Part shown: piece by piece, positions 3,652 through 48,839 of the stretch
Numbering within the stretch: position 1 is the first letter of the stretch
Layout of the letters: every line of letters begins with the position of its first letter
Assembly (NCBI GenBank): GCA_020059045.1
Contig: JAGVCW010000004.1
Span: 1-51,399 of the forward strand
Direction: 5' to 3'
DNA from: Minisyncoccota bacterium
Lineage (GTDB): Bacteria > Patescibacteriota > Minisyncoccia > Phycocordibacterales > Zambryskibacteraceae
DNA: 51,399 bases
Notes under the pieces: generated by a model
The model's input: the letters and a program-made list of their open reading frames with translations, nothing else
Databases searched by the model: none
What the model was told of the DNA's origin: nothing
Position numbers and translations under genes: made by a program

Positions 3652-3722
3652 GGCTATGTGCCCGAGTGGCCAGGGGGTGCTCTGCAAAAGCATTTACACC
3701 GGTTCGACTCCGGTTATAGCCT
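3652..3722 (+). tRNA. tRNA-Cys (anticodon GCA)
   Basis: A full cloverleaf can be drawn. The acceptor is GGCTATG/TATAGCC with one G-T pair. The D arm is CCC/GGG. The anticodon stem is GTGCT/AGCAT with loop CTGCAAA, giving anticodon GCA at 3684-3686. A four-base variable loop follows, and the T arm is ACCGG-TTCGACT-CCGGT. The discriminator is T3722, the expected identity base of tRNA-Cys. CCA is not encoded. The gene sits between the two terminase genes and is the only tRNA I found. Confidence 0.93.
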
Positions 3723-3835
3723 CATTTGGGTAGTGTGGATACCTATATTGTGCAGAATTTAATGTGGCGTGGTCCCGATGTGAGACTGAGGAGTGTGTTG
3801 TAAAACCAATGTTTCGTAGAATTTTATACTGAGTT

Positions 3836-5170
3836 TTGACGGATATACCAAATTTTGACAAAGAGCCACTAAAGGAAAGGGTCATTTTCGAACCTTACCC
3901 GAAGCAACAGGAGTATATCGAGGCTGTTTTTTCCGGATTATATTCTTTTCTGTGTTACGGAGGGGCGATGGGTGGGGGAAAGTCGTTCGTCTGCCTTACT
4001 ACCTTGATTTTACTCGCCAGGGCCTATCCAGGGTCGAAATGGTGCGTCATCCGTGAGTCTTTGCCTACGATTAAGAAAACGACCTTAGAAACCTTTCAGA
4101 GGATCGTGCCATCAAATTTTATAAAGAGTTTCAACCAACAGGAGTTGATTTACAACTTCGTCAATGGCTCTCAGATATTTTTTATGGCTGAGGACTTTCG
4201 GAATGATAAGGAATTCGACCGATTTAAGGGATTGGAGGTAAACGGGTTCCTTTTAGAACAGGTGGAGGAGCTTCAGGAGAAGTTGTTAAGTATTTGCTTT
4301 ATCCGGGCCGGAAGACATAAGATTCCAAATATGCCACCACGACCTTTGGTGATGGCTAACGTAAACCCGACCTTAACTTGGGCCAAGCAGAAAATCTACG
4401 ATCGGTTTGTAAATAAAACTTTGCCGCCAGACTGGTTCTATGAACCCGCTAAAATTTCGGATAACCCAGTTCTTTTCGAGGATGAGTTCTACATGCACAA
4501 CTTGACCTCGCATTTGGACGATTTAACCTACCGGAGGTTGATTGATGGAGACTGGAACGCCTTTGCCATTGATAAACCATTTCTGTACAAATTCTCGATG
4601 GAGAGGCACGTTAAAGAAGCCTACACACCAAATCAGTACGTACCCATTACGATTTCATTCGACTTCAACGTTGAGCCCATGACCTGCCTTATCGGGCAGA
4701 AGCTGGATATGATGACCGGGTTTATTTTTGACGAGATCGAGATTAAAACCGGATCCACCGAGGAGATGTGCGACCAAATTATTTCCAAGTACCGGGATTT
4801 TATGGGCAATATGCAGGTGACCGGAGATGCGACAGGCCGAAATCGTCAAGCAGTGATGCAGGGTAACTTAAACCACTATCGGGTTATTAAAGAAAAATTA
4901 TTTTTGAAGGACGAGGAGTTGATAGTGCCCAAACAGAACCCGAGCCATAAGGATTCAAGAGTTTTGGGTAACTCCGTGTTGCAACATGCAAATTTTTTTA
5001 TTACTAGAAACTGCGAAAAAGCGGTTACCGATGCGATATATGCTGAGGTAGATGAATTCGGTGAATTAATCAAGACAAAAGGCGAGGGTAGACATTTTTT
5101 CGACAACTACCGCTATATATATCATGCATGGTATCCGGAATTTATCACTCGGCCAGAAAAATATTTTTAA
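3836..5170 (+). CDS. terL: Terminase large subunit
   Basis: 444 aa ATPase-nuclease motor that packages DNA into the prohead. The Walker A motif is YGGAMGGGKS (residues 41-50). The Walker B region is NGFLLEQVEEL (136-146), with Glu141 as likely catalytic carboxylate. The nuclease domain has FDFN (Asp276) and GDATGRNR (Asp331). Length and motif order fit the PBSX/Terminase_3-6 group. The start is the TTG at 3836, because an in-frame stop lies at 3830-3832 and the next Met is too far in. A hairpin terminator candidate follows the stop. Confidence 0.95.
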   Translation: MTDIPNFDKEPLKERVIFEPYPKQQEYIEAVFSGLYSFLCYGGAMGGGKSFVCLTTLILLARAYPGSKWCVIRESLPTIKKTTLETFQRIVPSNFIKSFNQQELIYNFVNGSQIFFMAEDFRNDKEFDRFKGLEVNGFLLEQVEELQEKLLSICFIRAGRHKIPNMPPRPLVMANVNPTLTWAKQKIYDRFVNKTLPPDWFYEPAKISDNPVLFEDEFYMHNLTSHLDDLTYRRLIDGDWNAFAIDKPFLYKFSMERHVKEAYTPNQYVPITISFDFNVEPMTCLIGQKLDMMTGFIFDEIEIKTGSTEEMCDQIISKYRDFMGNMQVTGDATGRNRQAVMQGNLNHYRVIKEKLFLKDEELIVPKQNPSHKDSRVLGNSVLQHANFFITRNCEKAVTDAIYAEVDEFGELIKTKGEGRHFFDNYRYIYHAWYPEFITRPEKYF

Positions 5171-5497: not shown

Positions 5498-5704
5498 ATG
5501 AGAATCTACAAGAACGTATACAAAGCCCCGAACGGCACTTTACTTACCTACCCATCGCTTTACCTCAGCGAAGAAGAGGCCAGAGAGAAGGGCCGCGATC
5601 AGTTTTTGCAGACCACGACAGATGGCGTAGATCAATACGACATTTATCAGTTTACATTTTGGGTTGATGTCGCACAGCTTCCAAACACTTTGAATATCGT
5701 ATGA
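5498..5704 (+). CDS. Hypothetical protein, 68 aa
   Basis: A small protein with a beta-rich start (MRIYKNVYKAPNGTLLTYPS) and an acidic helix (SEEEAREKGRDQF). It overlaps the following GT42/DUF115-like gene by four bases, so it is probably translated with it. No family recognised. Confidence 0.6.
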   Translation: MRIYKNVYKAPNGTLLTYPSLYLSEEEAREKGRDQFLQTTTDGVDQYDIYQFTFWVDVAQLPNTLNIV

Positions 5705-6249
5705 TTTTTACCGTAGTAGCGTGTGGTGACTCAGCAAAGAATTGGATTCCAAGAGGAACTTCAATAGGGTCAAATGACTGCGAGAAATTTGGGAAACCTG
5801 TAGATTATTTAATTGTGGCAAACAGCCCGGTAAGATTTTCAAAGGAGCGAATGGAGATAATAAAAAAATCCAAGGCTAAATTTTTCTCTCACGACATGAA
5901 ACGCTGGCGCACGATGTTCCCAAACGGGGAACAGCTTACAAAGATTACCTTTTTCAACACAAGGATACTCCCAGGATATGTTTATACCTCAGTTACCACT
6001 CCCATCATGTGTGTGTCAATGGCTATCCGGATGGGCGCGAAGGAAGTTGTGATTTGGGGAATGGACATGAAGTCACACCACACTTACTCGGAAGGAACGA
6101 AGAAAGGCGATCATGAGATCATGGTTTACAAGAAGTTCTTCACTGAGTGTAAGAGATTAGGGATTAAGATTTGGATCGGATCGTTAGGAACCGCGTTTGA
6201 TGGATTCCTTCCGGTTTATCCAGCAAATGGTTATGCTTGGGATTTATGA
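5701..6249 (+). CDS. GT42/DUF115-like Rossmann protein (putative sialyl- or Maf-type transferase)
   Basis: 182 aa. The N terminus, FTVVACGDSAKNW, followed by VDYLIVANSP resembles the nucleotide-binding start of DUF115/MptE and CstII-type proteins. The segment SVTTPIMCVSMAIRMGAKEV then VIWGMDM matches the 'T-x-x-C-x-x-A-I-x-x-G-x-K-E-x-x-x-x-G-x-D' pattern of GT42 sialyltransferases and the DUF115 region of the flagellin glycosyltransferase Maf. This suggests transfer of a nonulosonic or related sugar. It heads a run of glycan enzymes coupled by ATGA overlaps. A non-transferase role (6-hydroxymethylpterin pyrophosphokinase-like) is possible. Confidence 0.5.
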   Translation: MIFTVVACGDSAKNWIPRGTSIGSNDCEKFGKPVDYLIVANSPVRFSKERMEIIKKSKAKFFSHDMKRWRTMFPNGEQLTKITFFNTRILPGYVYTSVTTPIMCVSMAIRMGAKEVVIWGMDMKSHHTYSEGTKKGDHEIMVYKKFFTECKRLGIKIWIGSLGTAFDGFLPVYPANGYAWDL

Positions 6250-6878
6250 ACTACTGTACGATAACTCCAACGCGAGGAGACAGACCTGAACTTTTAAAAC
6301 ATTGCCTTGAGCAACTTAGAAGAATGAACGGTGGATTCCATGTGACCAACGCTTATCTGATGAACGACAAACCCAGATCAGAAAAACCCGATATTATTGA
6401 TCGCGTTCGAAAAGGTATCGAGATGGCCAAGAAAGATGGGTTTGAATTCGCATTCGTGATCGAGGATGACGACCACTACCCAGAGAATTATCTGACATCA
6501 ATTGACATGGACTTTGATTTCTTTGGGTATGAAGATACAGTTTATTACAATCTAAAGAATCGGACCTACGAGAAGTATAACCATCCAAGGAGAAGTTCTC
6601 TGTTCACTACAGGATTTAGAATTTCAGCAATGGACAAGTTCAACTGGCCATCGGATGACACTGTATTTTTGGATACTCGTATTTGGGACTTTGCGCTTCG
6701 TAAAAAAATGAAGACGGTTCTGTTGAAAAACAATCCCTGTACCGGAATCAAACACGGAATCGGAAAGACCGGAGGAAAAGGGCACAGACTTAAAATGAAA
6801 AACATGGACTCAGATTATAACTTTCTCAGGTCCAGGGTTGGTGACGATTTTGAGTTCTATAAAAATTTAACGCTATGA
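6246..6878 (+). CDS. GT-A glycosyltransferase
   Basis: 210 aa from the ATG in the ATGA overlap at 6246; an alternative ATG lies at 6237. The N terminus, NYCTITPTRGDRPELLKHCL, is a typical GT-A opening, and VIEDDDHY (residues 71-78) provides the metal and nucleotide-sugar binding acidic cluster. The C-terminal half carries FTTGFRISAMDKF and DTRIWDFALRKK, where an acceptor-side acidic residue is expected. It is cytoplasmic, with no membrane segment. The donor and acceptor are unknown. Confidence 0.65.
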   Translation: MNYCTITPTRGDRPELLKHCLEQLRRMNGGFHVTNAYLMNDKPRSEKPDIIDRVRKGIEMAKKDGFEFAFVIEDDDHYPENYLTSIDMDFDFFGYEDTVYYNLKNRTYEKYNHPRRSSLFTTGFRISAMDKFNWPSDDTVFLDTRIWDFALRKKMKTVLLKNNPCTGIKHGIGKTGGKGHRLKMKNMDSDYNFLRSRVGDDFEFYKNLTL

Positions 6879-7036
6879 GCCACGAAATTAGAAAAATGTA
6901 TTGGGTAATTGAAAGATGTGGGTGGAATTTCCTTAGAGTAATACAAGTATTTGCTACGGAAGCCGAGGCAATGGATTTTATTAAGGTGGATAGCATTGGG
7001 GTTCGTTTTGTTTTGGAAGTTAAAACACCACTATGA
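6875..7036 (+). CDS. Small hypothetical protein, 53 aa
   Basis: An ORF bridging two glycosyltransferases, with a four-base ATGA overlap on both sides, which is good evidence of translation. The protein begins MSHEIRKMYWVIERCGWNFL and has a short helix, TEAEAMDFIK. It is not a recognisable enzyme and may be a partner of a neighbouring transferase or a coupling ORF. Confidence 0.55.
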   Translation: MSHEIRKMYWVIERCGWNFLRVIQVFATEAEAMDFIKVDSIGVRFVLEVKTPL

Positions 7037-7650
7037 TAACTTTGATCCATCCATCCCGTTCCCGTCCTCAGCAAAGCCACGACACATTATACAAGTGGAG
7101 GTCGAGAGCCGGAGTTGATGTTGAAGTGGTTGTGAGTTTGGACCAAGATGACCCAATGCTGGAAGATTATTATATAACACCAGGTGATACGACATTGGTC
7201 AATCATAACAGAAAGGCAATAGATGCGATAAACCGTGCTGCCAGAGTAGCGAAAGGAAACATAATGATCGTTGTTTCGGACGATACTGACTGCCCAGTAA
7301 ATTGGGCAAAGAAGATTCTAAACGCGACAGCCGGGAAAGAAGATTTTGTTGTGAAGGTTGATGACGGCATCCAGCGCAAGATGATAACCATGCCGATACT
7401 AGATAAGAAATATCATAACCGTTTTGGATACATCTACAATCCAGCTTACGATCATTTATTTGTTGACGCTGAGTTTTCTGAGGTTGCATACAGGCTGAAG
7501 AAAGTTATTCACGTTAAGGCTAAGTTTCCACATCTTCACTATTCCAGAACAGGACAGAAGCCAGATGCGGTTCATTTGAAGAACGAGGCAACGTATCCTC
7601 AAGGCAAGGAATTATTTACACAGAGAAAAAAAATACACTTTGGGTTATGA
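7033..7650 (+). CDS. GT-A glycosyltransferase, paralogue of 8166-8873
   Basis: 205 aa. The opening, MITLIHPSRSRPQQS, is followed by LDQDD, an NHNRKAIDAINRAARV helix, and VVSDDTD (residues 80-86) as the donor-site acidic motif. The later VDDG and GYIYNPAYDHLFVDAEFSEV are shared with 8166-8873 in the same order. The enzyme probably moves a sugar from a host nucleotide donor. Overlaps on both sides couple it to its neighbours. Confidence 0.65.
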   Translation: MITLIHPSRSRPQQSHDTLYKWRSRAGVDVEVVVSLDQDDPMLEDYYITPGDTTLVNHNRKAIDAINRAARVAKGNIMIVVSDDTDCPVNWAKKILNATAGKEDFVVKVDDGIQRKMITMPILDKKYHNRFGYIYNPAYDHLFVDAEFSEVAYRLKKVIHVKAKFPHLHYSRTGQKPDAVHLKNEATYPQGKELFTQRKKIHFGL

Positions 7651-7712
7651 GACTTTTAATCATTTTACTAATCATGGTCATAAGCATTTTTGTGGCCGTA
7701 TATTATTTTTGA
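7647..7712 (+). CDS. 21-aa membrane peptide
   Basis: MRLLIILLIMVISIFVAVYYF is almost entirely hydrophobic. It starts in an ATGA overlap with the preceding glycosyltransferase and ends three bases before the next ATG. The tight spacing supports translation. It could tether partners to the membrane or be a coupling ORF. Confidence 0.4.
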   Translation: MRLLIILLIMVISIFVAVYYF

Positions 7713-7715
7713 ATT

Positions 7716-7934
7716 ATGGACAACACTAAATTCCCACAAGGTATCAGAGCCTACAAGCCTCACGAAAAGGCACCGAGTTTTGTTAAAGCAAACATCTCGA
7801 TAAAACGTGAAGAGTTGCAGGAGTGGATGGACCAACATGGTTCAGACATCAAACTTCAGCTTAAAGAAGCAAAGACCGGAAACTTCTATCTGGAAATAGA
7901 CACCTATCAGAAACCCTCTGGCCCAAACGATTGA
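7716..7934 (+). CDS. Conserved small phage protein, 72 aa
   Basis: The protein reads FPQGIRAYKPHEKAPSFVKA, then an ISIKREELQEWMDQHG segment, then a beta end (GNFYLEIDTYQ). This 'FP.GI....PHEKAP.FV...ISI' pattern occurs in small proteins of many phages and archaea, usually of unknown function. It is not a glycan enzyme, so it is a foreign member of the cluster. Confidence 0.6.
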   Translation: MDNTKFPQGIRAYKPHEKAPSFVKANISIKREELQEWMDQHGSDIKLQLKEAKTGNFYLEIDTYQKPSGPND

Positions 7935-8179
7935 TGACCTGCAATGACTGTAAATATCTGAGGCAAGGACCGGGGTGTATGCTCTGCGGTCACGACAATC
8001 CGCCAAAGGAAAGGATAGATTACATAAATGCTGGTTTTGATGCCTGTGAGAAGTTTGAAGACGTACATTGGAATACACTAACCGACGAGCAAAGAATTGC
8101 TATGGGATGCAAAAAGAAAGGTGACTACTGGAGTGCGCCAGATTCTAAATTTGGAGGGTTCAGGTATGATACTAATTAA
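7934..8179 (+). CDS. Cysteine-rich small protein (zinc-ribbon-like)
   Basis: 81 aa starting at the ATG of a TGATG overlap. The N-terminal half has CNDC, then CMLCGHDNPP and a later DACEKFED, giving five Cys and a His that could bind zinc. The C-terminal half, TDEQRIAMGCKKKGDYW, is polar. It overlaps the next glycosyltransferase by 14 bases. Unknown role. Confidence 0.55.
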   Translation: MTCNDCKYLRQGPGCMLCGHDNPPKERIDYINAGFDACEKFEDVHWNTLTDEQRIAMGCKKKGDYWSAPDSKFGGFRYDTN

Positions 8180-8873
8180 ATTCGCCACTCGATCTCGTCC
8201 AACTCAGTTCGTCCGAGCGATGAACAACATCCGGACGACAACGGAGACACCTTACAAGATACTGATTACTTGTGACAAGAGTGATATTACAATGAATACC
8301 CAACAGATCAGGGATTTTATAACAAACAGGCATAGAAATGCGCAAATATTTTACGGTCCAGATCAAGGAAAGATTGGAGCGATAAATAGAGACATGGAGA
8401 AGGCGGGGGATTGGCAGATATTGGTGAACTTCTCAGATGACATGGTTTTTAAGGTCAGTGGATGGGATAAGATACTGCGGCAAAAAGTATCTTCAGTGTG
8501 GGGAGATTCCACGGACTTTTTTGCGCATTTTAACGATGGTTACATAGGCGATGCGTTGGCCACAATGTCTATCATTGGTCGTGAGTACTATGAACGTGAT
8601 GGTTATATTTATCATCCGAGTTATAAAAGTTTCTCATGTGATGCTGAGGCATATTATGTGGCTATTGCAAGAGGTAGGCATCATTATTTTGATGATGTCA
8701 TTTTCAAACATGAGCATCCCTCTAACAACAAATCAACAAGGAACGATTCGTTGTATAAACAAAACGCCAAAGTAGCCGGTGGGGACACACAGAACTACTT
8801 CAGGAGATTAAACAACAACTTTGATTTAGAAATACCCGGGCCGCATGTTTGGGACAAATATAAGACCGCATGA
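8166..8873 (+). CDS. GT-A glycosyltransferase, paralogue of 7033-7650
   Basis: 235 aa from ATG 8166; the ORF is open further upstream, but that part overlaps 7934-8179. It shares with 7033-7650 the RSRP start, the KIGAINRDMEK helix, VNFSDDM (residues 87-93), FNDG and RDGYIYHPSYKSFSCDAEAY. It is therefore a diverged duplicate and probably adds a related sugar. HYFDDVIFKHEHP may form the metal-binding C-terminal histidine site of GT-A enzymes. Confidence 0.65.
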   Translation: MILIKFATRSRPTQFVRAMNNIRTTTETPYKILITCDKSDITMNTQQIRDFITNRHRNAQIFYGPDQGKIGAINRDMEKAGDWQILVNFSDDMVFKVSGWDKILRQKVSSVWGDSTDFFAHFNDGYIGDALATMSIIGREYYERDGYIYHPSYKSFSCDAEAYYVAIARGRHHYFDDVIFKHEHPSNNKSTRNDSLYKQNAKVAGGDTQNYFRRLNNNFDLEIPGPHVWDKYKTA

Positions 8874-9481
8874 AACCACTATTAGCCATACTAATTTGCC
8901 ATCTTCCGGAGAGGAAACAACTACTCGATAGGGTTATAGGTCAACTTAACGAGCAGCGCAAGGGAGAGGATTGTATTGTTCTGATTAACTCAGACAATAG
9001 AGAAAAGACAACTGGTGAGAAAAGAAACGAACTACTCGATCAGGCCAGAGAGTTAAACGCATCACATATTGCTTTTGTTGACGATGACGACCTGATAGGG
9101 CCGAACTACGTCAAACATCAAATGGCCGTCACTAACGGAGACTACGACTGTGGAGAACTATGGGGGCAGTATTGGGAGAACAATCAAAAACTAAATCCAT
9201 TTCACCACTCAATTGTTCATGACCATTGGTGGCAAGATTCAAAATTTTATTACCGCAACCCAAACCACTTGAATTGTATCAAATTGGAATTACTGAAAGA
9301 CATCAGGTTCCAAGATAAGACCGTTGGAGAGGATGGTCACTACTCCATCGACATTCAGAAAGCCGGACTTTTAAAGAATGAATATCCAATAAAGGAAATC
9401 ATTTACTACTATTTTGCCGGTGGTAAACGTGACCACAAAAAAGAAATGTCATGGGCTTTATCAAGAGGGACTAAGTTATGA
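8870..9481 (+). CDS. GT2-family glycosyltransferase
   Basis: 203 aa. It opens MKPLLAILICHLPERKQLLD and has the clearest GT2 signature in the cluster: KRNELLDQARELNASHIAF then VDDDDLI (residues 70-76), the metal/UDP-sugar-binding acidic motif. The C-terminal VGEDGHYSIDIQKAG supplies the expected catalytic-base 'ED' region. A soluble inverting transferase with unknown acceptor. ATGA overlaps on both sides. Confidence 0.8.
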   Translation: MKPLLAILICHLPERKQLLDRVIGQLNEQRKGEDCIVLINSDNREKTTGEKRNELLDQARELNASHIAFVDDDDLIGPNYVKHQMAVTNGDYDCGELWGQYWENNQKLNPFHHSIVHDHWWQDSKFYYRNPNHLNCIKLELLKDIRFQDKTVGEDGHYSIDIQKAGLLKNEYPIKEIIYYYFAGGKRDHKKEMSWALSRGTKL

Positions 9482-10251
9482 CACTCTCCTACTCACTATT
9501 CGGCGATCCTAACTCATTTGAGTTTCCATTCTACCTCAGAGGCTTATACTTTAACTTGAGGATGAATCGAATCTTGTATCCTGAGTTCAATTCAATGGTT
9601 ATGCTTCAAAGAGGAGTTCTTCAGGAGCCAATGATAGAAGATTTGCAAGCATTGTTTCCGGAATTGACAGTAGTCAGGATGGGCACCGCTCCGAGATGTG
9701 AATCAATGCTCTGGCGTATGAGTCCTTTATTTGAAGGGACCGATGTAATTTGCAGGGACACAGACAGCGTTTCAACCTATAGAGAAGCGTGTTGTGTTTA
9801 CAAATGGTTGGATTCCGGATTTCCATTCCATGCGATCAACGACAACAACGCTCATGCTGGATTGATGGGTGGTATGGTTGCCTTTAAGAGCAAAGAATTT
9901 CCTTCAGCAACAGGATTCAAGTCATTTCCGGATATGGTCAAAGGACTCAATCTTAACAATCACGGATCTGACCAGAACTTCATGAACAAATCAATACTTC
10001 CCAAGATTGTAAAAAAATTACTCGTCCATAAAGATCGAGGTGCCGGATGTACCGGAGCCGAAACTAAAGACATACCAACATATCATCCCAAACTCAACAC
10101 AAATCTTTGGGTTGCCGATTTGATTTCAAGATACATTGGATCGGCTGGTGTGATTGATTTTGAACTGTTAAGATTTTTAAAGTCGGTCCAGAAAGATGTT
10201 GTTTATGATAATTTTGAGAAACGCTTCCCTAAAACATTCTACTGGGTATGA
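9478..10251 (+). CDS. Glycosyltransferase-like protein with DTD motif
   Basis: 257 aa. Residues 91-99, ICRDTDSVS, give a DxD motif following a conserved RMGTAPRCESMLWRM segment. The later HAINDNNAHAGLMGGMVAF and NHGSDQNFMN resemble the acceptor and second metal sites of GT8-type retaining enzymes. The sequence is not a standard GT2. I infer a nucleotide-sugar transferase; the sugar is unknown. Confidence 0.55.
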   Translation: MTLSYSLFGDPNSFEFPFYLRGLYFNLRMNRILYPEFNSMVMLQRGVLQEPMIEDLQALFPELTVVRMGTAPRCESMLWRMSPLFEGTDVICRDTDSVSTYREACCVYKWLDSGFPFHAINDNNAHAGLMGGMVAFKSKEFPSATGFKSFPDMVKGLNLNNHGSDQNFMNKSILPKIVKKLLVHKDRGAGCTGAETKDIPTYHPKLNTNLWVADLISRYIGSAGVIDFELLRFLKSVQKDVVYDNFEKRFPKTFYWV

Positions 10252-10739
10252 AATCAGAAAAACTAGATGGAGGCAGACGTATAGATGATTTTGGTGTCAT
10301 CATGCCTTGGTATACTCAACCATGCCTTCAGTGGTTGGAGACACAAGAACTATCCGGTAAGATGATTTTTGAATATGGTGGTGGTGACTCAACTAGTTGG
10401 TATCGCAGTCGTGGGTGCACTGTGTACGGTGTTGACTCAAATGAGCAATGGATAACTGACGGGTTCGAATGTTTCACTGAGAAGAAAGACTACGTCATGG
10501 CCATTCAGAAATACGGGGAGTTTGATATAATCATTAATGATGGACTGTGGAGGGATAGTTGTACCTCTTATGCTCTTGATCATCTCAAAAAAGGTGGTTT
10601 ATTAATAATTGATAACTACCACCAGCCGAGCGTTGAACCATCTTGGCCAAAAACAGATGAACTAATAAAGCATCTTAAAAAAACGATTTATAAAGAACCG
10701 GCTCACGCAGATTGGAAAACGGCAGTGATAATAAAATGA
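10248..10739 (+). CDS. SAM-dependent methyltransferase-like protein
   Basis: 163 aa. FEYGGGDST (residues 41-49) is a class I motif I glycine loop; VYGVDSNEQW follows as the acidic end of strand 2. FDIIINDG and LKKGGLLIIDNY match motifs IV and VI of Rossmann methyltransferases. In a glycan cluster it would most likely O-methylate a sugar. The family is clear at fold level only. Confidence 0.65.
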   Translation: MKSEKLDGGRRIDDFGVIMPWYTQPCLQWLETQELSGKMIFEYGGGDSTSWYRSRGCTVYGVDSNEQWITDGFECFTEKKDYVMAIQKYGEFDIIINDGLWRDSCTSYALDHLKKGGLLIIDNYHQPSVEPSWPKTDELIKHLKKTIYKEPAHADWKTAVIIK

Positions 10740-11476
10740 AGTACGTAGTAATATCCACAAACGAAGTACCAAAGTATCGGTTCTATCAGCCACTAGTTGA
10801 ATGGGCGTGGCGTAAATTGGACTGGGGAGTTATCACGTTCAATGTTGGTATTGAGTGTGGTGATAACAGATGGCCAGTTGAGTGTTCAGGGTATAAGTCA
10901 GAAACTGTTGCTCAGGTATCCAGACTTTACGGAGCCTGCGTGACTAAACCGGGGGACTACCTGATGACCTCAGACGTTGACATGCTTCCATTGTCGGATT
11001 ATTGGAAGCCTAAGTTTGATGACATAACCTGTTATGGCAGAGACTTGACAGATTACCACTACCCCATCTGCTATATCGGGATGAATCACGACAACTGGTC
11101 TTTGGTCATGGACCTCGATGGGCCAGACTACGACAAGTACATTTCACAGGACTTGATCTTTTCCAGGCAAAGTAAAAACGTTTGGTGTTTCGATCAGGAT
11201 TTAATAACAAAGAATATAAACAAGACATGGCACAGGGATAAATTGACGTTGGTGGATCGTGGGACGGATAAGAGAACGGGGTATCCAATCGGGCGTGTAG
11301 ACCGAAGTAATTGGAGATTGGATCACTCTGTTCTTATTGACGCACACCTTCCGCACGACATCCTGACGAGTGAGGATAGCTTCAAGAAAGTAATAAATTT
11401 ATTACATACAGTTTGGCCATCTGAGGACTTCAAATGGTTTATCCAATACTACAAAGACTTTAAAAAAACACTATGA
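10736..11476 (+). CDS. Glycosyltransferase-like protein with DVD motif
   Basis: 246 aa from the ATGA-overlap start at 10736. The N-terminal Rossmann region ends in GDYLMTSDVDMLPLSDYW, whose SDVDM (residues 79-83) is a DxD-type donor site. The following region, CYGRDLTDYHYPICYIGM, resembles GT-A enzymes that act on glycans or proteins. No membrane segment. Substrates unknown. Confidence 0.6.
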   Translation: MKYVVISTNEVPKYRFYQPLVEWAWRKLDWGVITFNVGIECGDNRWPVECSGYKSETVAQVSRLYGACVTKPGDYLMTSDVDMLPLSDYWKPKFDDITCYGRDLTDYHYPICYIGMNHDNWSLVMDLDGPDYDKYISQDLIFSRQSKNVWCFDQDLITKNINKTWHRDKLTLVDRGTDKRTGYPIGRVDRSNWRLDHSVLIDAHLPHDILTSEDSFKKVINLLHTVWPSEDFKWFIQYYKDFKKTL

Positions 11477-12108
11477 TAATCTGCTCACTTGCTTTCGGAG
11501 AAAAATACGTTTGGAGACTTGGTCGCCTTAAAGAAATGTTGGCAACAACAAATCCAGGCGTTCCATTTATGCACTGGATTGATACCATGCCACCGGGTGC
11601 CCAGTCGTTCAACGATTCAATGTATGGTTTTAAACCACATTGCATTCAGGCATGCTTAGACGCAGGACATAAGCAGATAGTCTTTATCGACTGCACTTGT
11701 GTGGTTCATGGCGACCTGAGTTATTACCAACAATTCGTGGAGGAGTATGGAGTCTTAGCAGTTCAGGACGACAACAAGTTAACCGGATTCTGCTCCAATA
11801 AGGTTTTGAAATACATCGGACAAAAGAGGGAGTTCCTTCACGACAAACATTTGGTTGGTGGATCATTTTATTACTTTGACTTTAACAATGATCTTTGTCG
11901 AAGAATTTTTGATTGGTGGATGACTACAGAGAGACTAGGACTGTACGGGAGTCAGCGGGAGCAAGCCAGTGAGGGGTTGCAAGGCCATCGGAGTGATGAA
12001 ACAATGATGGCATTGGCTCTTTATTTGAACGGTTCAAAGCCGTATACGAAAGACACAAGATACAATTGGGCTGAGGGTGGATTAATTAATAAAGCACATT
12101 TCAAATGA
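11473..12108 (+). CDS. Divergent glycosyltransferase-like protein (DxD replaced by DCT)
   Basis: 211 aa. The layout is that of a GT-A enzyme: an N-terminal Rossmann start (MIICSLAFGEKYVWRL), a strand ending FIDCTCVVHGD (residues 71-81) where DxD is expected, GGSFYYFDF, and a C-terminal QGHRSDETMMALALY. The usual second Asp is Thr, so the metal site is incomplete and the protein may be metal-independent or inactive. It still sits in the unbroken ATGA-linked run. Confidence 0.5.
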   Translation: MIICSLAFGEKYVWRLGRLKEMLATTNPGVPFMHWIDTMPPGAQSFNDSMYGFKPHCIQACLDAGHKQIVFIDCTCVVHGDLSYYQQFVEEYGVLAVQDDNKLTGFCSNKVLKYIGQKREFLHDKHLVGGSFYYFDFNNDLCRRIFDWWMTTERLGLYGSQREQASEGLQGHRSDETMMALALYLNGSKPYTKDTRYNWAEGGLINKAHFK

Positions 12109-12947
12109 CACACGACCAAATTCACTCTCCGGCATTCCAAAAGATTTCAGATTATATCTGGTCGCCTAACTTAGGTGATGCCTATGTTCAATCTGTAATT
12201 CAGGAACACAATCCCAAATTGATTCCATGCAACAAAAAAAGTCCTCCTAGTAATGGGGTTATCTTTGTTGGCATGACTCAGATTATTGAGGATGTGTATG
12301 CCGAATTACCAAAGACTGGTAGCTTTATAATTATACACCGTCCAAGCGATAGGTCATATACAGATTCAATTGACGACAAAAAACCAGCCAGTGTTAAGTT
12401 TGTTTACTCAGTAGATTGTGCTGTTCGCAGGGAAAATGTAATGGCAATACCGTTTGGGACAAACTCAATAAATGGTGATGATCTGTGGCTTCGTAACATT
12501 CATGCGGAGACTGTACCAAAAGCCACCACAAGGGTTTTCTGTAGGTATAACGTTAATAACAGCGGGTACACGAAAGAGAGAATAGCCTCGTTGCCGATAT
12601 TGAAAAGCAAGCCATTTGTAAAAGTTGTGGAAAGCCAGATTCCAGCAGATGAGTTCTTCCGTGAACTTTCAGCACATCAATTCACAATGAGTCTTCAGGG
12701 ATGTGGGAAGGATTGCGCAAGGACTTACTCATCAATGACATTGGGGTCAATACCAATTGTAACAGACTGTGTTGAGATGAGGCATTTTGAGGATATGCCA
12801 ATGTCCTTCTGTCCTCCGTGGGAAAGTTTTACGGAGGAATGGCTGGACCAACAAGCTGAATTAATGAAGGGCAAGAGCACCGAGAGGGCGCATATGTCTT
12901 ATTGGGTTAATCACATAAAAATGATTAGGGAGAAATGCGGAATCTAG
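12105..12947 (+). CDS. Exostosin/GT47-like glycosyltransferase
   Basis: 280 aa, probably GT-B fold. The C-terminal half has TMSLQGCGKDCARTYSSMTL and GSIPIVTDC (residues 194-222), the 'G.G.D..R.....LGSIPIV' pattern of exostosin-like and related transferases, where the donor nucleotide binds. The N-terminal half carries GVIFVGMTQIIEDVYAELP and an IPFGTNSING segment. It is the only GT-B-type enzyme in the cluster. Its 3' end overlaps the next gene by 13 bases. Confidence 0.6.
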   Translation: MTHDQIHSPAFQKISDYIWSPNLGDAYVQSVIQEHNPKLIPCNKKSPPSNGVIFVGMTQIIEDVYAELPKTGSFIIIHRPSDRSYTDSIDDKKPASVKFVYSVDCAVRRENVMAIPFGTNSINGDDLWLRNIHAETVPKATTRVFCRYNVNNSGYTKERIASLPILKSKPFVKVVESQIPADEFFRELSAHQFTMSLQGCGKDCARTYSSMTLGSIPIVTDCVEMRHFEDMPMSFCPPWESFTEEWLDQQAELMKGKSTERAHMSYWVNHIKMIREKCGI

Positions 12948-13489
12948 TCACCATATCTGGACACACATTTGACCAATCAATTTTGAATGGATGGGTTGTA
13001 ATTGACGTTGGATGTCGTGATTTTGAGTTTGCCAGTAACTTTCGTAAGTGCGAGGTATTCTGCATAGACCCTGATCCAGATGTATTTGTTGGTGCACCAA
13101 GAAACGTTACCTGCCTTAATGTAGCCATATCGGATAAGAATGGAAAATCAACATACTACCGTAATGGTGAAATGTCAGTGCTAACTGATATTTACAAACC
13201 CTATGCACATCTTTACACGGAGTGCAAGACAATAACAATGGATCACCTGTATGAAATGACTGGTCCATATGTTGATCTTTTAAAACTTGATTGTGAGGGC
13301 GCTGAATATATAATTCTTGGGGATGGGTTTAAACCGATACCAAAACAGATTTCGGTAGAATTCCACAAACACACCGTTCCTGAATATCACGAGTTGCACT
13401 ACCAGAAATGCCTTGATAACTTGTTAAAGTATTATGACAAGGTTTATGAACACAAAACTTTAATGGACACATTATTTGTACGTAAATGA
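12935..13489 (+). CDS. FkbM-family methyltransferase
   Basis: 184 aa. VVIDVGCRDF (residues 21-30) is the SAM-binding motif I. VDLLKLDCEGAEYIILGD (113-130) is the hallmark 'D-x-E-G-A-E' segment of FkbM enzymes, followed by QISVEFHKHT. FkbM enzymes O-methylate sugars or polyketides, and in glycan loci they usually cap or modify a sugar. A second copy follows directly. Confidence 0.85.
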   Translation: MRNLVTISGHTFDQSILNGWVVIDVGCRDFEFASNFRKCEVFCIDPDPDVFVGAPRNVTCLNVAISDKNGKSTYYRNGEMSVLTDIYKPYAHLYTECKTITMDHLYEMTGPYVDLLKLDCEGAEYIILGDGFKPIPKQISVEFHKHTVPEYHELHYQKCLDNLLKYYDKVYEHKTLMDTLFVRK

Positions 13490-14058
13490 AACTAGAAACT
13501 ATCGCTGAACACACGCTTGCAATGGACATTCTTCCTGAGAGAGCGCAAATCCTAGACATAGGTGCAAGAGGACTTCTATTTGCCAATGAGTTAATTTCCA
13601 GGGGCCACGAAGTCTGGACTATTGATGCCGATGACCTTGAAGGAATGACTCATCCAAATCTGGCAATCAGTGATTATGACGGATATTGTTACCTGAGAAG
13701 GACCAATGACCCACAGGCTACAATGATCAACGAAAGGATTCCGGAAGAAAACCATGACTCTGTTTTAGTAATGACGCTGAAGTCATATTCTAAAATGGTA
13801 AACGTTGACTTTTGGGATGCAATCAAGATTGATTGTGAGGGTGCTGAGTACGAAATTATTATGTCGATGGATGCCCCAATGGCTACGCAACTAAGCATCG
13901 AGTTCCATTTACATACCGGAATTTATGGTCAGAAAGAGGTCCATCAAATGGAGAAGAAACTTTTGAGTTTGGGTTACTTTGCTGTTTCTCATCTGAAGTA
14001 TCCGGCACATGGATGCTCTGCTAACTATTGGGATTCGTTATGGGTATATGAGGAATGA
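13486..14058 (+). CDS. FkbM-family methyltransferase (second copy)
   Basis: 190 aa. ILDIGARGLLFA (residues 22-33) and AIKIDCEGAEYEIIMS (112-127) place it in the same family as the previous gene, and SIEFHLHTG matches its SVEFHKHT. The pair is a tandem duplication that has diverged, perhaps to methylate different positions. Four-base overlaps on both sides. Confidence 0.85.
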   Translation: MKLETIAEHTLAMDILPERAQILDIGARGLLFANELISRGHEVWTIDADDLEGMTHPNLAISDYDGYCYLRRTNDPQATMINERIPEENHDSVLVMTLKSYSKMVNVDFWDAIKIDCEGAEYEIIMSMDAPMATQLSIEFHLHTGIYGQKEVHQMEKKLLSLGYFAVSHLKYPAHGCSANYWDSLWVYEE

Positions 14059-14558
14059 AAATCGGTAATGGTGATATTGCCCAAGCACTGATAGACAGAG
14101 ATGACGTAATCTTTTTTGCGTCAGGAGTCAGTGATAGCCGATGTGAGGATATTGGCGAATACTTACGCGAGGAGTTACTACTGGTTGATATTTACAACAG
14201 GTACTACGTGAGGGGGACGCAGATAAAAAGTCTCTTCTATTTCAGTTCAATTGCGATCAACATGTACGATTCTAAGTATTTCATACACAAGCGAAGTATG
14301 GAGAGAATGGTGAGAGAACTGTTTATGGATTGTGTAATTCTGAGGATAGGAAATATCACCTGGGGTAACAATCCAAACACTTTTCTGAACTACCTTAGAG
14401 GCAGAAAAGAATTAGGGCTTCCGATTAACGTAAGGGATGAGTACAAATACATGATCAGCAAGGATCAGTTTCAGATGATTACGTCTTGTTTACCTTCGAT
14501 AGGGCAACATACAATTTCGGTATTTGGTGAGATGAAAAAAGTCAAGGATTTGATATGA
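14055..14558 (+). CDS. Short SDR/epimerase-like NAD(P) protein
   Basis: 167 aa. GNGDIA (residues 4-9) is a Rossmann glycine motif, FFASGVSDS resembles the second strand region of atypical SDRs, and YFSSIAINMYDSKYFIHK contains Ser64/Ser65 and a YxxxK pair (Tyr75, Lys79), the SDR catalytic signature. VILRIGNITWG parallels 'LRxxNvyG' of extended SDR epimerases. It is about half the usual length of such epimerases. It is the only visible nucleotide-sugar-type enzyme here. Confidence 0.65.
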   Translation: MKIGNGDIAQALIDRDDVIFFASGVSDSRCEDIGEYLREELLLVDIYNRYYVRGTQIKSLFYFSSIAINMYDSKYFIHKRSMERMVRELFMDCVILRIGNITWGNNPNTFLNYLRGRKELGLPINVRDEYKYMISKDQFQMITSCLPSIGQHTISVFGEMKKVKDLI

Positions 14559-15055
14559 AAAAAGAAGAGTTCGTTAAAGATGTGGGAAACTGGGATAACC
14601 ACCGATTATTGTTATGGCCAGCATTGGAAGCAACAAAAAAGTTGCTACTGCCAGTCTTAGAGTTGGGTTGTGGGGAAGGTTCCACGCCATTCCTAAAGAA
14701 GTATTGCCATGATGAAGGATTGGAACTGTTCTCATACGACTACAACGAGAAGTGGGCTGCTTTGTATGGGGCCACGCATACCGATTGGTCTATGTTTGGG
14801 GCTATTTGTGCTGTTAAGTATGGGGTGTGTCTGATTGATGAGTCTCCCGGTGAGCACCGTAAAGAGTCTCTTCAAAAAGTAAATGCTGAGATCATTGTTA
14901 TCCACGACTCGGAGCCGAAAGGATGGAATTCTTCTGACTATCAAGTGAGGCCGTTGTTCAAGAATTTCAAGTACGTGCGAGATCTTGAATCTGTTGTGCG
15001 CGGCGGGGCGTGGGCCACAATGTTATCAAATACAATTAACGTGAATAAGATATGA
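14555..15055 (+). CDS. SAM-dependent methyltransferase-like protein
   Basis: 166 aa. VLELGCGEGSTPFL (residues 34-47) is a clear motif I. LFSYDYNEKWA gives the acidic residue after strand 2, and CLIDESPGEHRKESL plus IIVIHDSEPKGW follow, as in methyltransferases of sugar and cephalosporin-hydroxylase type. It probably modifies a sugar in the cluster pathway. Confidence 0.65.
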   Translation: MKKEEFVKDVGNWDNHRLLLWPALEATKKLLLPVLELGCGEGSTPFLKKYCHDEGLELFSYDYNEKWAALYGATHTDWSMFGAICAVKYGVCLIDESPGEHRKESLQKVNAEIIVIHDSEPKGWNSSDYQVRPLFKNFKYVRDLESVVRGGAWATMLSNTINVNKI

Positions 15056-15816
15056 AGCTGTGCACAATTATAAATGCATGGACAGACACACTTTGTCTTC
15101 TGCCGTTCTGTGTGGAGAACCACCTGACGTTTTCGGATGGAGTTATTGTTGTTTGGAGCGAGACTTCCAACAAGGGTCAAAAGGATGACAGGATAAAAGA
15201 GTTTGTTTACGGACACACTTTCAGCGATGTGATATTCCACCAGCTTGAGCCAATACAAGGAATTTTACCGCTGATGAACGAAACCCGAAAGCGAAATTCC
15301 GGCTTGGACGTTGCAAGACAGCATGGATTCACCCATTTTATAATTGCTGACGCTGACGAGTTTTACGTTACGAAAGAAGTGGAATGGGAGAAGAAGCGAT
15401 TTGAGGCAAAAGACCTTAATGGGCTAGTTTGTGGACTAAATGTGTATATAAAAAGCCCCACATTGATGACTGACGACCACACGCTGGTGCCGTTTATCCA
15501 CAAATTGACCCCGAAGATAAAGTGCGGCGAGTTCCGCGGGTACCCGTTTGCCTATGACGATAAGAAACAGGCCCACATTGACCCATCAAGGCGATTAAAT
15601 GTCGATGTCGGAATCCGGTGGAGCGAGATCAAGATGAGGCACATGAGTTACGTCAGGGACAATATAATGATGAAAATCATGAACAGTTCTGCTAAGTTGG
15701 AGAATTCGAAAGATGTAATTGCAAGGGATCTTGAAAACGCTAGGCCGGGGTATATTTCGGAACTTTACCACCAGCCACTACAGGAGGTTGACAACATTTT
15801 TAACATAACGATATGA
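15052..15816 (+). CDS. GT2/GT92-like glycosyltransferase
   Basis: 254 aa. The opening, MKLCTIINAWTDTLCLLPFC, then VENHLTFSDGVIVVWSETS is typical of GT92/DUF23-type enzymes. FTHFIIADADEFYV (residues 93-106) contains the DxD. A conserved HMSYVR motif lies near the C terminus. It is the last transferase of the run and overlaps a membrane protein by four bases. Confidence 0.75.
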   Translation: MKLCTIINAWTDTLCLLPFCVENHLTFSDGVIVVWSETSNKGQKDDRIKEFVYGHTFSDVIFHQLEPIQGILPLMNETRKRNSGLDVARQHGFTHFIIADADEFYVTKEVEWEKKRFEAKDLNGLVCGLNVYIKSPTLMTDDHTLVPFIHKLTPKIKCGEFRGYPFAYDDKKQAHIDPSRRLNVDVGIRWSEIKMRHMSYVRDNIMMKIMNSSAKLENSKDVIARDLENARPGYISELYHQPLQEVDNIFNITI

Positions 15817-16082
15817 TTTCTTACATCGTGATTACCAGTTTGTGGATTTGGGGTGTGAATTGCCTGTTTGAGGACGGGATGATTTTCGGGAAAATTGGCA
15901 ATTGGATGTACGAAAAAGCCCCTGGATGGATATACAAACCAACAATTGGATGTACGGCCTGTATGGCATCAATTCACGGGACATTAGCCTATTTCCTGCT
16001 ATTTAACCACGGATTGGCACTTTGGCCGGTGTTCTGTGTGTGTGTTTGTGGACTAAACTTCATAATAATCAAATTTCTGTAA
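15813..16082 (+). CDS. Two-span membrane protein, DUF1360-like
   Basis: 89 aa. A hydrophobic N-terminal helix is followed by a soluble loop, EKAPGWIYKPTIGCTACMAS, with a CxxC, and a C-terminal hydrophobic pair of segments rich in Cys. The 'GC..CM.SI.G' pattern resembles small phage membrane proteins of the DUF1360 group. As the only membrane protein at the end of the glycan run it could anchor the enzymes or be unrelated. Confidence 0.55.
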   Translation: MISYIVITSLWIWGVNCLFEDGMIFGKIGNWMYEKAPGWIYKPTIGCTACMASIHGTLAYFLLFNHGLALWPVFCVCVCGLNFIIIKFL

Positions 16083-16115: not shown

Positions 16116-16358
16116 ATGAGCATAATAGAGAAACTTTCGGATCGAAACGGCCTAATCTATGAGGCCATCACGATGATTATGGTCCACACTGGGCCTGCAA
16201 GCCCACCAAAACTCCAATGGGAGTTGTTTAAGTGTGGAATTTATATAAAACAGCCGCTTTTGCTTCAGGCAATGTCGGTAATGAAGGAAAAAGGAATGAT
16301 TGGAAGACCAGATGAGAAAGAAACGAGTAGCGAAACGCCGGCCAGTAAAGCCGATTAA
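16116..16358 (+). CDS. Hypothetical protein before the tail chaperone
   Basis: 80 aa, with a helical start (MSIIEKLSDRNGLIYEAITM) and a Ser/Thr-rich tail. Its 3' part overlaps the tail chaperone ORF by up to 59 bases. The first 60 residues could form a small winged-helix-like domain (LQWELFKCGIYIKQPLLLQAM), but this is not convincing. The position suggests a small head-tail or tail accessory protein. Confidence 0.55.
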   Translation: MSIIEKLSDRNGLIYEAITMIMVHTGPASPPKLQWELFKCGIYIKQPLLLQAMSVMKEKGMIGRPDEKETSSETPASKAD

Positions 16359-16947
16359 CCCGGTTTACAACCTAAAACATCCCGACATTGCCCATAAGGT
16401 CGAAGTGGCTTTCGAGGCCGGTGGGAGGTCATTCTATCGCTTTATAGACGACCACCAGATTCCTGCAGGAAGATACAAGTACATCTATGCGGCCCTCAGG
16501 GAGGTCGATTTACGCATGAATCTGGACACCTTGAAAGGGTATGTGGCTGAGATCAAGAAAGTCCTGAATGGGGGCGATAAAAAGAACAACATTTCGCTTG
16601 AAAACCTGTGGAGGGTTACATTGAACCTTGAATCCCGTCTTGCTTTGGCGTTTGAGCCGGCAAGTGTCGCCAGGTTGGCAGCAGTTCTATTTTTCGATGA
16701 GACAGAGGATTTAATGACCTACGACAAAATGAAGGGTGCCCAAAAGGTTGAATTTTGGGAAAAGCATAACGTTCGTGATTTTTTTTTGACGATGCCTATA
16801 GTAGAATTGCTCGGACTGAGAAATATTTCAGCAACATCTTTGGAGGCATTTATTCAGGAAAGTCAACTTCTCCTACAGGATTTGACGTTCGATCTTCAGA
16901 ATCAATCATCGGAGAGTTTATCCGAGAGTGGGAAGAGTCCTTTGTGA
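16300..16947 (+). CDS. Tail assembly chaperone, short form (gpG analogue)
   Basis: 215 aa; an alternative ATG is at 16312. It has a basic N terminus (KKRVAKRRPVKP) and a helical body (LRMNLDTLKGYVAEIKKVLN, LENLWRVTLNLESRLALAF). The position directly before the tape measure gene, and the -1 frameshift site in its last third (T9 at 16779-16787), match the G/GT arrangement of lambda-like tails, in which a short and a frameshifted long chaperone coat the tape measure protein. The sequence itself does not match a named chaperone family by eye. Confidence 0.7.
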   Translation: MEDQMRKKRVAKRRPVKPINPVYNLKHPDIAHKVEVAFEAGGRSFYRFIDDHQIPAGRYKYIYAALREVDLRMNLDTLKGYVAEIKKVLNGGDKKNNISLENLWRVTLNLESRLALAFEPASVARLAAVLFFDETEDLMTYDKMKGAQKVEFWEKHNVRDFFLTMPIVELLGLRNISATSLEAFIQESQLLLQDLTFDLQNQSSESLSESGKSPL

Positions 16948-17138: not shown

Positions 17139-19706
17139 ATGGCTGATAAAGTCCAGAACATTACCATTAACTATAAAGTTAACACATCAGAGGTAGAAAA
17201 AGCCAACGCCACTCTAAATCGGGCAAATCAGGCAACAAATCAACTTCAGGCGGCAGCGGAGAAATCTGGACAGAATATGTCCAAATCGTTCAAGCAAGTT
17301 GAGGTCACAGTTGGTGACCTCAGGGGAGAACTTAACGCGCTAAGGGCGAGAATTGACCGTACAGCAGCCAACTCACCACAACTCGCGGCCCTAACAAAGC
17401 AATATGCTGATTTAAACAAGCAAATACAGGCAACTACAAAGACTGCTGGTGACGCAGCCAAGTCATCCGGATCATTAGCCACTCAGTTCGGTAATTTATA
17501 TCGTGCAGCACAGTTATTTGTGACTGCTGGGATAGCAAAAGAAATTGTTGATGTTACGTTATCAATGGCCACTCTCCAAGGTCAGGTTGAGGGAGTATCA
17601 AGGGGATTTGAGAGGGCATTCCCAAATTCAGTTAAGGTTCTCGGTGATCTAAGACAGGCGACAAAGGGGACAATCAACGATTTTGAGTTGATGAAGAGGA
17701 CCTTACAGGCTACTAACTTAGGTGTATCTGTCGAAAAACTTCCCATACTTTTTGAATTTGCCGCAGCAAGGGCACAACAAACAGGAGAGTCAGTTGACTA
17801 TCTTGTCGATTCAATTGTACGTGGTATAGGGCGTAAGTCTCCATTAGTTCTGGACAACTTGGGTATTTCGGTAACTGCCCTGAAAGAGAAATTCGATGGA
17901 GCCTCCATTGCATCAAAAACAGTTGCTGAAGCCACTGAAGGGGTTGCTGAAATAGCTAAGGAGCAACTTGAAAAGATGGGTGGCTACGTAGCAACCGCAG
18001 AGACAGATGTTAAAAATTTAAAAGCGGCTTGGCAGGAATTAAGGATTGAGATTTCAAAAAAAATAGAAAGCGGTGGTATTATTGGGTTCTTAAATGAGCA
18101 GATAGATAATATCACTACAGTTGTAAAAGGACAAAGAACACTTCAAATAGAGTATATAAAATCAGCGGCGTCAGCAGATGCAGCGAGAGTTACAGAATCT
18201 GAATCATTTAAGCAACTCAAAGGAAACCAACAAGCAAGAATAGATTTTATACAGCAGGAAGTTAATTCAAGAGTTCAACTGGTTGGAAGATATAATGACC
18301 AGATGAAGGCAATGAGAGAGCAAAGAGATTTGCTTAAAGACAAAAATCCATACGATAAGCAAATTGAGTCTATAAATAATACAATAAAAGCACTTGAGGC
18401 AAATAAGTTTGTAATACTTGAAACAAAAAGAATACTAAAAGAATACCTTGACGACTTAAGTCAACCAGTAGATGTTAAGATAACCAACCTTGCGAAATTA
18501 AGAGAGGATCTTGCTGAACTTAAGCGGATACGTGAAGAGGATATTGCGATAACAAACACAAAAGCATTTGAGGCAAACGCAAGAGAAATTAACCAATTAG
18601 AACAACGCATTCTCCGTATTGATGATAACATCAAATACATGAAACAGTTCGACATGGCTAAGGAGCAATCAGCACTAGCCACAGCAAACGAAACTGCTCA
18701 GTTGAAATTATTTAACGATGAGATTGATAAGTTCAGGGAAAAAACACTTAATGGAGGAACAGTTAAGTTTTCTACAGGAGAGATAACTGGTGATAATTCG
18801 GCTACAGAATCATTTGGTGATTTATCCGCACCACCTGATTTGTTTGATCCTGAAGAGATTGTTGGTGACAGCGGTGAAACGGCGGCTGAACTTCTAGCTA
18901 ATAAATTCTGGACAAGACTCAGGCTTGCATTCAAACAGGAAGGTGGAGATACCTCAGAGTTACAGGATGAGCTAAATCAAGCAATGGAAACATTATTTCT
19001 TGGTTCCGTTGATATTGTAGCGGACCAACTAATGTCATTAGCAGATGTTGAAGTTCAAACACTTCAAAGGAGACTTGGCGCGTTGAAAGAGTTTTATGAT
19101 ATGCAACTCTTAATGGCCGGTGATAATGAGAAAGCCAAAGAAAGACTGCGCATTAAAGAGGAGAATGAAACAAACAGGTTAAGAAGAAGAATTTTCGAAG
19201 CCGATAAGAAAGCAGCAAAAACTCAGGCATTGATAAACGGTGCGGCAGCAATAGTTAAGACTTTGGCCACAGTTGGTTATCCGGCTGGTATTGTTCTAAG
19301 TGCACTCGTTGCTGCACAAACCGCATCACAAATAGCTATCATCGACCGTCAACAGGCCCGTTTTGCAAAAGGTGTTATTGATTTGAAGGGTCCAGGAACC
19401 GGAACATCAGACTCCATACCTGCAAAACTTTCAAAAGGCGAGTCCGTTATGACCGCATGGGAAACTAAAAATGCCGGTGGTATCCTGAGGGACATACGCG
19501 CAAGGAAACTTGACGACAGCATTATAAAAAGTTTAAAGGTTGGCAGACAGCCGATAGCGCAAAACAACTTTAATGATGAGCGAATCATAAAGGCGATCAG
19601 AGATAACAAGGCACCCGACATCATTGAACAGTCCGGAATCGTTTACAAAGTCACACAGAAGTCGGATGAGTATAGAAACAGGATACGTGCAAAGACCATA
19701 AGATAA
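17139..19706 (+). CDS. Tail tape measure protein
   Basis: 855 aa. The first 150 residues are Ala/Gln/Lys-rich coiled coil (KANATLNRANQATNQLQAAA). A globular region follows (AQLFVTAGIAKEIVDVTLSM, then VEGVSRGFERAF), with long helical repeats (350-680) and a C-terminal part containing alanine-rich hydrophobic stretches (NGAAAIVKTLATVGYPAGIV). The C terminus GPGTGTSDSIPAKLSKGESV then MTAWETKNAGG is a hallmark of phage tape measure proteins. It sets tail length and is probably ejected with the DNA. It follows the frameshifted chaperone, as expected. Confidence 0.9.
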   Translation: MADKVQNITINYKVNTSEVEKANATLNRANQATNQLQAAAEKSGQNMSKSFKQVEVTVGDLRGELNALRARIDRTAANSPQLAALTKQYADLNKQIQATTKTAGDAAKSSGSLATQFGNLYRAAQLFVTAGIAKEIVDVTLSMATLQGQVEGVSRGFERAFPNSVKVLGDLRQATKGTINDFELMKRTLQATNLGVSVEKLPILFEFAAARAQQTGESVDYLVDSIVRGIGRKSPLVLDNLGISVTALKEKFDGASIASKTVAEATEGVAEIAKEQLEKMGGYVATAETDVKNLKAAWQELRIEISKKIESGGIIGFLNEQIDNITTVVKGQRTLQIEYIKSAASADAARVTESESFKQLKGNQQARIDFIQQEVNSRVQLVGRYNDQMKAMREQRDLLKDKNPYDKQIESINNTIKALEANKFVILETKRILKEYLDDLSQPVDVKITNLAKLREDLAELKRIREEDIAITNTKAFEANAREINQLEQRILRIDDNIKYMKQFDMAKEQSALATANETAQLKLFNDEIDKFREKTLNGGTVKFSTGEITGDNSATESFGDLSAPPDLFDPEEIVGDSGETAAELLANKFWTRLRLAFKQEGGDTSELQDELNQAMETLFLGSVDIVADQLMSLADVEVQTLQRRLGALKEFYDMQLLMAGDNEKAKERLRIKEENETNRLRRRIFEADKKAAKTQALINGAAAIVKTLATVGYPAGIVLSALVAAQTASQIAIIDRQQARFAKGVIDLKGPGTGTSDSIPAKLSKGESVMTAWETKNAGGILRDIRARKLDDSIIKSLKVGRQPIAQNNFNDERIIKAIRDNKAPDIIEQSGIVYKVTQKSDEYRNRIRAKTIR

Positions 19707-35264: not shown

Positions 35265-35280
35265 AACAAAAAAAACAAAT

Positions 35281-48069: not shown

Positions 48070-48305
48070 TTAATCGTTGTTTTCGTATTTTTCACGTTCG
48101 TAATGTGCATTTAATTCAAGTTGTTCTATGAACTCACAGCGTTCCCGCCATTCGTCTGAAGATACTTTTACGGTCCCCTCTTCAACATCTTTAAGAAGTG
48201 CGTTCTCTTCCGTTTCTTTTAGTCGGGTGTAAAAGCGTTCTGGTTCGTGAAGTTGATGGCCTACTCCGTGGTAAACAGGGTCTAGGTTGTTTGTGTATGA
48301 TTGGC

Positions 48306-48309
<4 letters not shown>
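48070..48309 (-). CDS. Hypothetical early protein, 79 aa
   Basis: ATG 48309 gives an ATGA overlap with the upstream gene. Charged and helical: SYTNNLDPVYHGVGHQLHEP, then KDVEEGTVKVSSDEWRERCE. No family. Confidence 0.55.

Positions 48310-48839
<530 letters not shown>

Follow-up and report, generated by a model that had tools for sequence, protein, structure and literature searches.

Gene content and setting of the cassette

The window, i.e., the whole 51.4-kb stretch of DNA analysed here (IMG/VR record IMGVR_UViG_2830710863_000002), carries 15 glycan-type genes on the plus strand at 5701-15816, flanked by terminase and tail genes. A direct repeat of 99 bases at both ends of the window indicates a complete, circularised phage genome. 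The first part of the plus-strand late operon comprises the terminase large subunit gene (3836-5170; PHROG terminase match 1.3e-19, relatives L002-L015), the glycan cassette, a gene for a small membrane protein, a probable tail assembly chaperone (16300-16947) that precedes the tape measure gene and is kept in relatives, and the tape measure gene itself (17139-19706; PHROG tape measure matches 5e-7 to 1e-6), after which follow genes for a distal tail protein, portal, scaffold, probable capsid protein and tail fibres. A lone tRNA-Cys (3652-3723) lies immediately 5' of the terminase gene. Elsewhere, the genome encodes a NinG-like protein (548-979, 2.9e-35), a PNKP-type phosphatase domain without the kinase domain (50885-51295, 5.9e-50) and an AYAAD-type alanine-rich repeat protein on the minus strand (48306-48839), which is overlapped by a leucine-rich open reading frame (ORF; 48191-48556) that is probably a mechanical artefact. 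The contig was binned with a 0.9-Mb, 30-contig genome of patescibacterial look, whose 16S match is interrupted by an insertion. None of the 20 starts tested has a Shine-Dalgarno motif, as in Bacteroidota, and the phage has the look of a Bacteroidota phage, so that its contig was likely mis-binned.

The 15 cassette genes, named here by their start positions, comprise ten proven or likely glycosyltransferases (GTs; 5701, 6246, 7033, 8166, 8870, 9478, 10736, 11473, 12105 and 15052), four methyltransferases (10248, 12935, 13486 and 14555) and one short SDR (14055). The initial annotation had described about 15 such genes, mostly joined by ATGA overlaps, and this count holds: 4-base overlaps occur at 13 of the 17 junctions within 5701-16082 (12 ATGA and one TTGA), next to two overlaps of 13-14 bases and two gaps (154 and 65 b). 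Its outer boundary of 16,082 has to be drawn in to 15,816, as the last gene (15813-16082) encodes a small membrane protein of non-glycan type (CxxCMxS motif, hydropathy 2.42). Whether or not a phage has the cassette, this protein is kept beside the tail chaperone, and it was dropped as a cassette member because it still follows the terminase directly at empty sites. Two small ORFs at 7716-8179 are likewise of non-glycan type.

The assignments are firm for the FkbM proteins, the GT2-type PHROG families and the homologue of A075L, are based on fold for 6246 and 15052, and derive from motifs, conservation and context for 9478, 10736, 11473, 10248, 14555 and 14055. The conserved first gene (5701-6249, family alignment A1) encodes a DUF115/MptE-like protein and is a candidate for a GT42/Maf-type enzyme. 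The similarity proposed in the initial annotation was recovered in weak form, with PF01973 matching seven of the ten family members below the cut-off (best 0.0011) and a PHROG alpha-2,3-sialyltransferase family matching at 5e-4. The second conserved gene (6246-6878), whose start is likely at 6246 given the ATGA overlap, encodes a GT with an invariant E73/D75/D76 motif (alignment A2) and an AlphaFold2 model (pLDDT 88) that matches the WrtF fucosyltransferase, SpsA and B4GALT1 in Foldseek (3e-6 to 2e-5). The GT at the conserved 3' end of the cassette (15052-15816; DxDEF motif, alignment A3) gave a weak model (pLDDT 66) with Foldseek matches to GT2-type enzymes at 2e-6. Several GT-A enzymes had been proposed together with structure searches of each protein; the searches run on 6246 and 15052 back this fold for both, the latter on a weak model, and 10736 (10736-11476) is a probable third on its invariant D80/D82 motif (alignment A7; no Pfam or PDB match).

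Two paralogous GT2-type enzymes, 7033 (7033-7650; PHROG 14945 3.6e-20, GT2 0.0013, invariant S82/D83/D84) and 8166 (8166-8873; PHROG 14945 6.5e-19), share 28% identity (9e-13), and a third GT2-type enzyme, 8870 (8870-9481; PHROG 14775 2e-24), is a homologue of Che8 gp108 and LittleE gp15. Probable GTs are also encoded at 9478-10251 (RDxxS motif, alignment A6), which has no Pfam or PDB match and weakly resembles a jumbo-phage protein annotated as a SPINDLY-family O-GlcNAc transferase, and at 11473-12108 (motif and context, with homologues within the same cassette). The protein encoded at 12105-12947 was initially called an exostosin-like GT-B; it is a GT-B enzyme, but nearer to the GT114/RXYLT1 type than to exostosin (PDB 8q8i/8avq/8asa; RXYLT1_C 1.7e-5), with a 55% homologue in locus L038. 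Both FkbM methyltransferases of the initial annotation, which are paralogues (32%), exceed the curated cut-off for PF05050 (12935-13489, 1.4e-9; 13486-14058, 1.7e-5). The two other methyltransferases and the SDR stand as motif-based calls with homologues in other cassettes: a class-I SAM methyltransferase-like protein at 10248-10739, which recurs at the corresponding position in L008, L029, L038, L040 and L048, a second one at 14555-15055 with an E-x-G-x-G-x-GST motif (alignment A8; no informative Pfam match), and a short SDR-like protein with YxxxK at 14055-14558 (no Pfam match; homologues in L038, L039, L040 and L048). PDB sequence searches with 5701, 6246, 15052, 9478, 10736 and the FkbM proteins returned no informative match. 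A hydropathy check found no clear membrane segment in any of the 15 enzymes, and neither the ORF list nor profile searches yielded a lipid-carrier transferase, flippase or polymerase among the cassette ORFs, so that the soluble nature of the set and the lack of these three functions were both borne out.

Conservation and exchange in related phages

The position between terminase and tail genes recurs in a group of uncultured relatives. In a terminase-seeded search that was unbiased towards GTs (15 loci, the window itself included), every relative with sequence downstream of the terminase has cassette genes there. A broader search with a terminase profile yielded 80 loci that were mapped with profiles, a sample with many incomplete contigs and some near-copies, in which cassette genes follow the terminase in 38 related viral contigs (16 of which also show the tail-side flank) and 27 loci are empty sites, which lack a cassette and have the membrane protein, the chaperone or both within ~2 kb after the terminase. 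In a phylogeny based on the nuclease domain of the terminase, all 39 carriers (window included) fall on one side of a single branch (SH-aLRT 91), and cassette presence requires one change compared to a mean of 23.4 after shuffling. The empty-site phages are more distant relatives in which the terminase leads straight into the tail genes. Several of them carry a smaller homologous set (GT7033, GT8870 and FkbM-like) just upstream of the terminase, which indicates that GT sets are mobile but remain associated with the late genes. For several relatives, the similarity to the window terminase is confined to the C-terminal nuclease part (residues from ~209 onwards; alignment A9), which suggests an exchange of the ATPase domain. 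In an unrelated phage (L061, 6588-12723), a distant 6246-like GT is accompanied by an epimerase and a sulfotransferase, and head-tail connector-like genes come next; this is possibly another virion-glycan set, with sulfation.

Whether relatives conserve the whole set had been posed as a check by the initial annotation, and the answer is divided: the ends and the position are kept, but the middle is exchanged. Carriers have in common 5701 and 6246 and, in most cases, the final GT, 15052, with a middle that differs and is replaced by other glycan genes in L046, L049, L052, L057 and L068. Among the replacement genes scanned in L046, L057 and L068 are those for GT11, GT2, GT2_4, GT25, GT47, FkbM and epimerase proteins. 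Two carriers with terminase proteins 99.5% identical (L077 and L081) have intervening GTs of only 44-87% identity, with dN/dS values in this comparison mostly 0.06-0.26 where computable. Overall, dN/dS is mostly about 0.04-0.26, and the cassette is under purifying selection. Such fast exchange combined with preserved protein function fits a surface antigen.

Relation to known glycosylation systems

Two cassette enzymes have informative characterised relatives, and on sequence similarity both point to virion glycosylation. The GT 8870 is a homologue of the N-terminal domain of Che8 gp108 (hhalign 99.8%; tblastn 1e-16 against the Che8 locus and 1e-18 against LittleE gp15), and genes of its family lie directly after the LittleE capsid gene and a few genes before the Yvonnetastic terminase gene. 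Two studies describe the Che8 capsid protein as bearing glycans (PMC11256854, PMC12363180). No counterpart was found for Che8 gp110, which has been named as the GT that capsid glycosylation requires: profiles A2, A3 and A5 align to it with a probability under 1%, tblastn with all cluster genes gave no match to it, and the core GT profiles gave nothing against gp109 or gp110. The starter enzyme could be of another kind, and gp110 is a feature of the Che8/Corndog type rather than of every such system. The second enzyme, 12105, matches A075L of the PDB at 3e-14 over residues 137-271 (phmmer), i.e., in the donor-binding half only, so its acceptor may differ; phmmer left the N-terminal half unaligned, the acceptor half in which A075L has its catalytic base, Asp73. 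The phosphate-binding Arg158 and Arg208 of A075L align to Arg in 12105, and Asn148 is not clearly conserved. A075L is the beta-xylosyltransferase of the glycan on the VP54 capsid protein of PBCV-1 and the founder of GT114 (PMC11571054), and PBCV-1 methylates the terminal sugar of its glycan with its own methyltransferases (PMC9614988). By analogy, the four cassette methyltransferases would allow a comparable sugar methylation. Glycoproteins have also been detected in the proteome of a Xanthomonas jumbo phage, which has two GTs (PMC5852040).

The cassette shares parts of its design with several systems. Like the chlorovirus PBCV-1 capsid glycan pathway (A075L/GT114, A064R and A061L), in which virus-encoded soluble GTs and sugar methyltransferases decorate a capsid protein, it combines these two enzyme types; PBCV-1, in contrast, is a giant virus of eukaryotes with some sugar-nucleotide pathways of its own, whereas the window has a single cassette in a tailed phage with one homologous enzyme found (12105). 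Virion glycosylation in the actinobacteriophages Che8, Corndog and Myrna, which according to PMC12363180 and PMC11256854 was described by Freeman et al. in 2023, similarly involves phage-encoded soluble GTs, including the 8870 homologue gp108, with GTs grouped with virion genes in LittleE and Yvonnetastic. In Che8, however, three GT genes lie side by side close to the end of the genome, while the window phage, from an unrelated phage group, has ten GTs, four methyltransferases and an SDR at a terminase-tail site with swapped middles. DUF115/MptE is a domain of cytoplasmic Ser/Thr glycosyltransferases of flagellin (Maf/GT42), which 5701 weakly resembles; it differs in being a short single domain with a similarity below the Pfam cut-off, and no nonulosonic acid synthesis genes were recognised with it. 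O-antigen and capsule loci have the same pattern of conserved ends and swapped GT middles, but the cassette differs from them by its site in a phage late operon and by having no flippase, polymerase or lipid-carrier transferase.

Proposed function and alternatives

We consider it probable that the cassette enzymes act in soluble form to build a methylated glycan, variable between phages, on a virion protein. This reading, which in its main lines was already that of the initial annotation, draws on the late-operon position kept across the clade, the homology of 8870 and 12105 to Che8 gp108 and A075L, the antigen-like diversification and the lack of membrane GTs and lipid-linked machinery in the cassette. 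In the proposed pathway, the soluble GTs would build an oligosaccharide stepwise in the cytoplasm late in infection, on a phage structural protein and with nucleotide sugars of the host as donors. The conserved first enzymes (the Maf/GT42-like 5701 and the GT-A enzyme 6246) would probably attach or start the chain, which the variable middle GTs would extend, the GT114-type enzyme 12105 may add a branch (a pentose, if the donor of A075L is retained), and up to four methyltransferases would cap the chain. With an exchangeable middle, the surface glycans would then differ from phage to phage. Scanning for possible acceptor stretches rich in Ser/Thr returned weak candidates only, namely SGEDTSPNTSPDCS close to the C-terminal end of the probable capsid protein and the tail protein encoded at 19708-23412.

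Against a virion target it may be held that 8870 resembles gp108 of Che8 and not gp110 and that several GT and methyltransferase calls are motif-based; a cassette that is expressed late could instead act on host surface glycans. Remodelling of host LPS, capsule or another envelope glycan for receptor masking or superinfection exclusion would fit the GT2, FkbM and exostosin enzymes, which are frequent in envelope glycan loci, and the cassette swapping that recalls O-antigen loci, and alteration of the host serotype by phage GTs is among the work cited in PMC12619734. We nevertheless regard it as unlikely, since the cassette is embedded among the virion genes of the late operon, contains no membrane GT, flippase, polymerase or lipid carrier enzyme, and has its informative characterised homologues in enzymes that act on virions. 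Alternatively, the glycan might reside on a virion protein not to vary a shield but to keep the particle stable or to promote adsorption, by acting as a ligand for a lectin or receptor of the host. The evidence from position and homology applies equally to this purpose, tail proteins with carbohydrate-active domains (SASA esterase and pectate-lyase-like) speak for it, and nothing specific speaks against it, as it differs in purpose and not in chemistry; we rate its chances as slim. The carbohydrate-active domains belong to a pair of tail fibre-like genes (33654-35264 and 35131-36723), one with a SASA-type acetylesterase domain and the other combining collagen repeats with a weak match of pectate-lyase-like type.

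More improbable still is that the GTs glycosylate hydroxymethylated bases of the phage DNA as a protection against restriction. Hypermodification of DNA by phage GTs is covered by work cited in PMC12619734 as well, and 8870 weakly touches a TET-associated GT profile (E 0.046). Among the ORFs scanned, which took in part of the small ones, there was however no gene for a thymidylate-synthase-like hydroxymethylase, TET/JBP protein or base kinase, ten GTs and four methyltransferases go beyond the known base modifications, and the cassette is placed with morphogenesis genes.

Returning to the assembly of a glycan on the virion, we give an even chance to the more specific proposal that the cassette is a self-contained virion "serotype" locus, in which conserved starters and exchanged middles would produce different methylated oligosaccharides in a manner convergent with the chlorovirus capsid glycans, as a generally applicable means of varying how phage surfaces are recognised. 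To our knowledge, phage virion glycosylation has been proven in only a few actinobacteriophages with few GTs each. As glycosylation of virions by phage GTs is known, the label of an undescribed system that the locus had initially been given is too strong; what is new here is the scale, the methylation, the cassette exchange and the phage lineage. In the open-licence literature, we found no description of a cassette of this size, its fixed late-operon place in a clade, the exchange of its middle or a GT114 relative shared with an algal giant virus. If the proposed function is true, about a fifth of the genome is given to virion glycosylation, which would make it a core trait of this phage group and would lead one to ask which selective forces, outside animals, favour glycans on phage surfaces.
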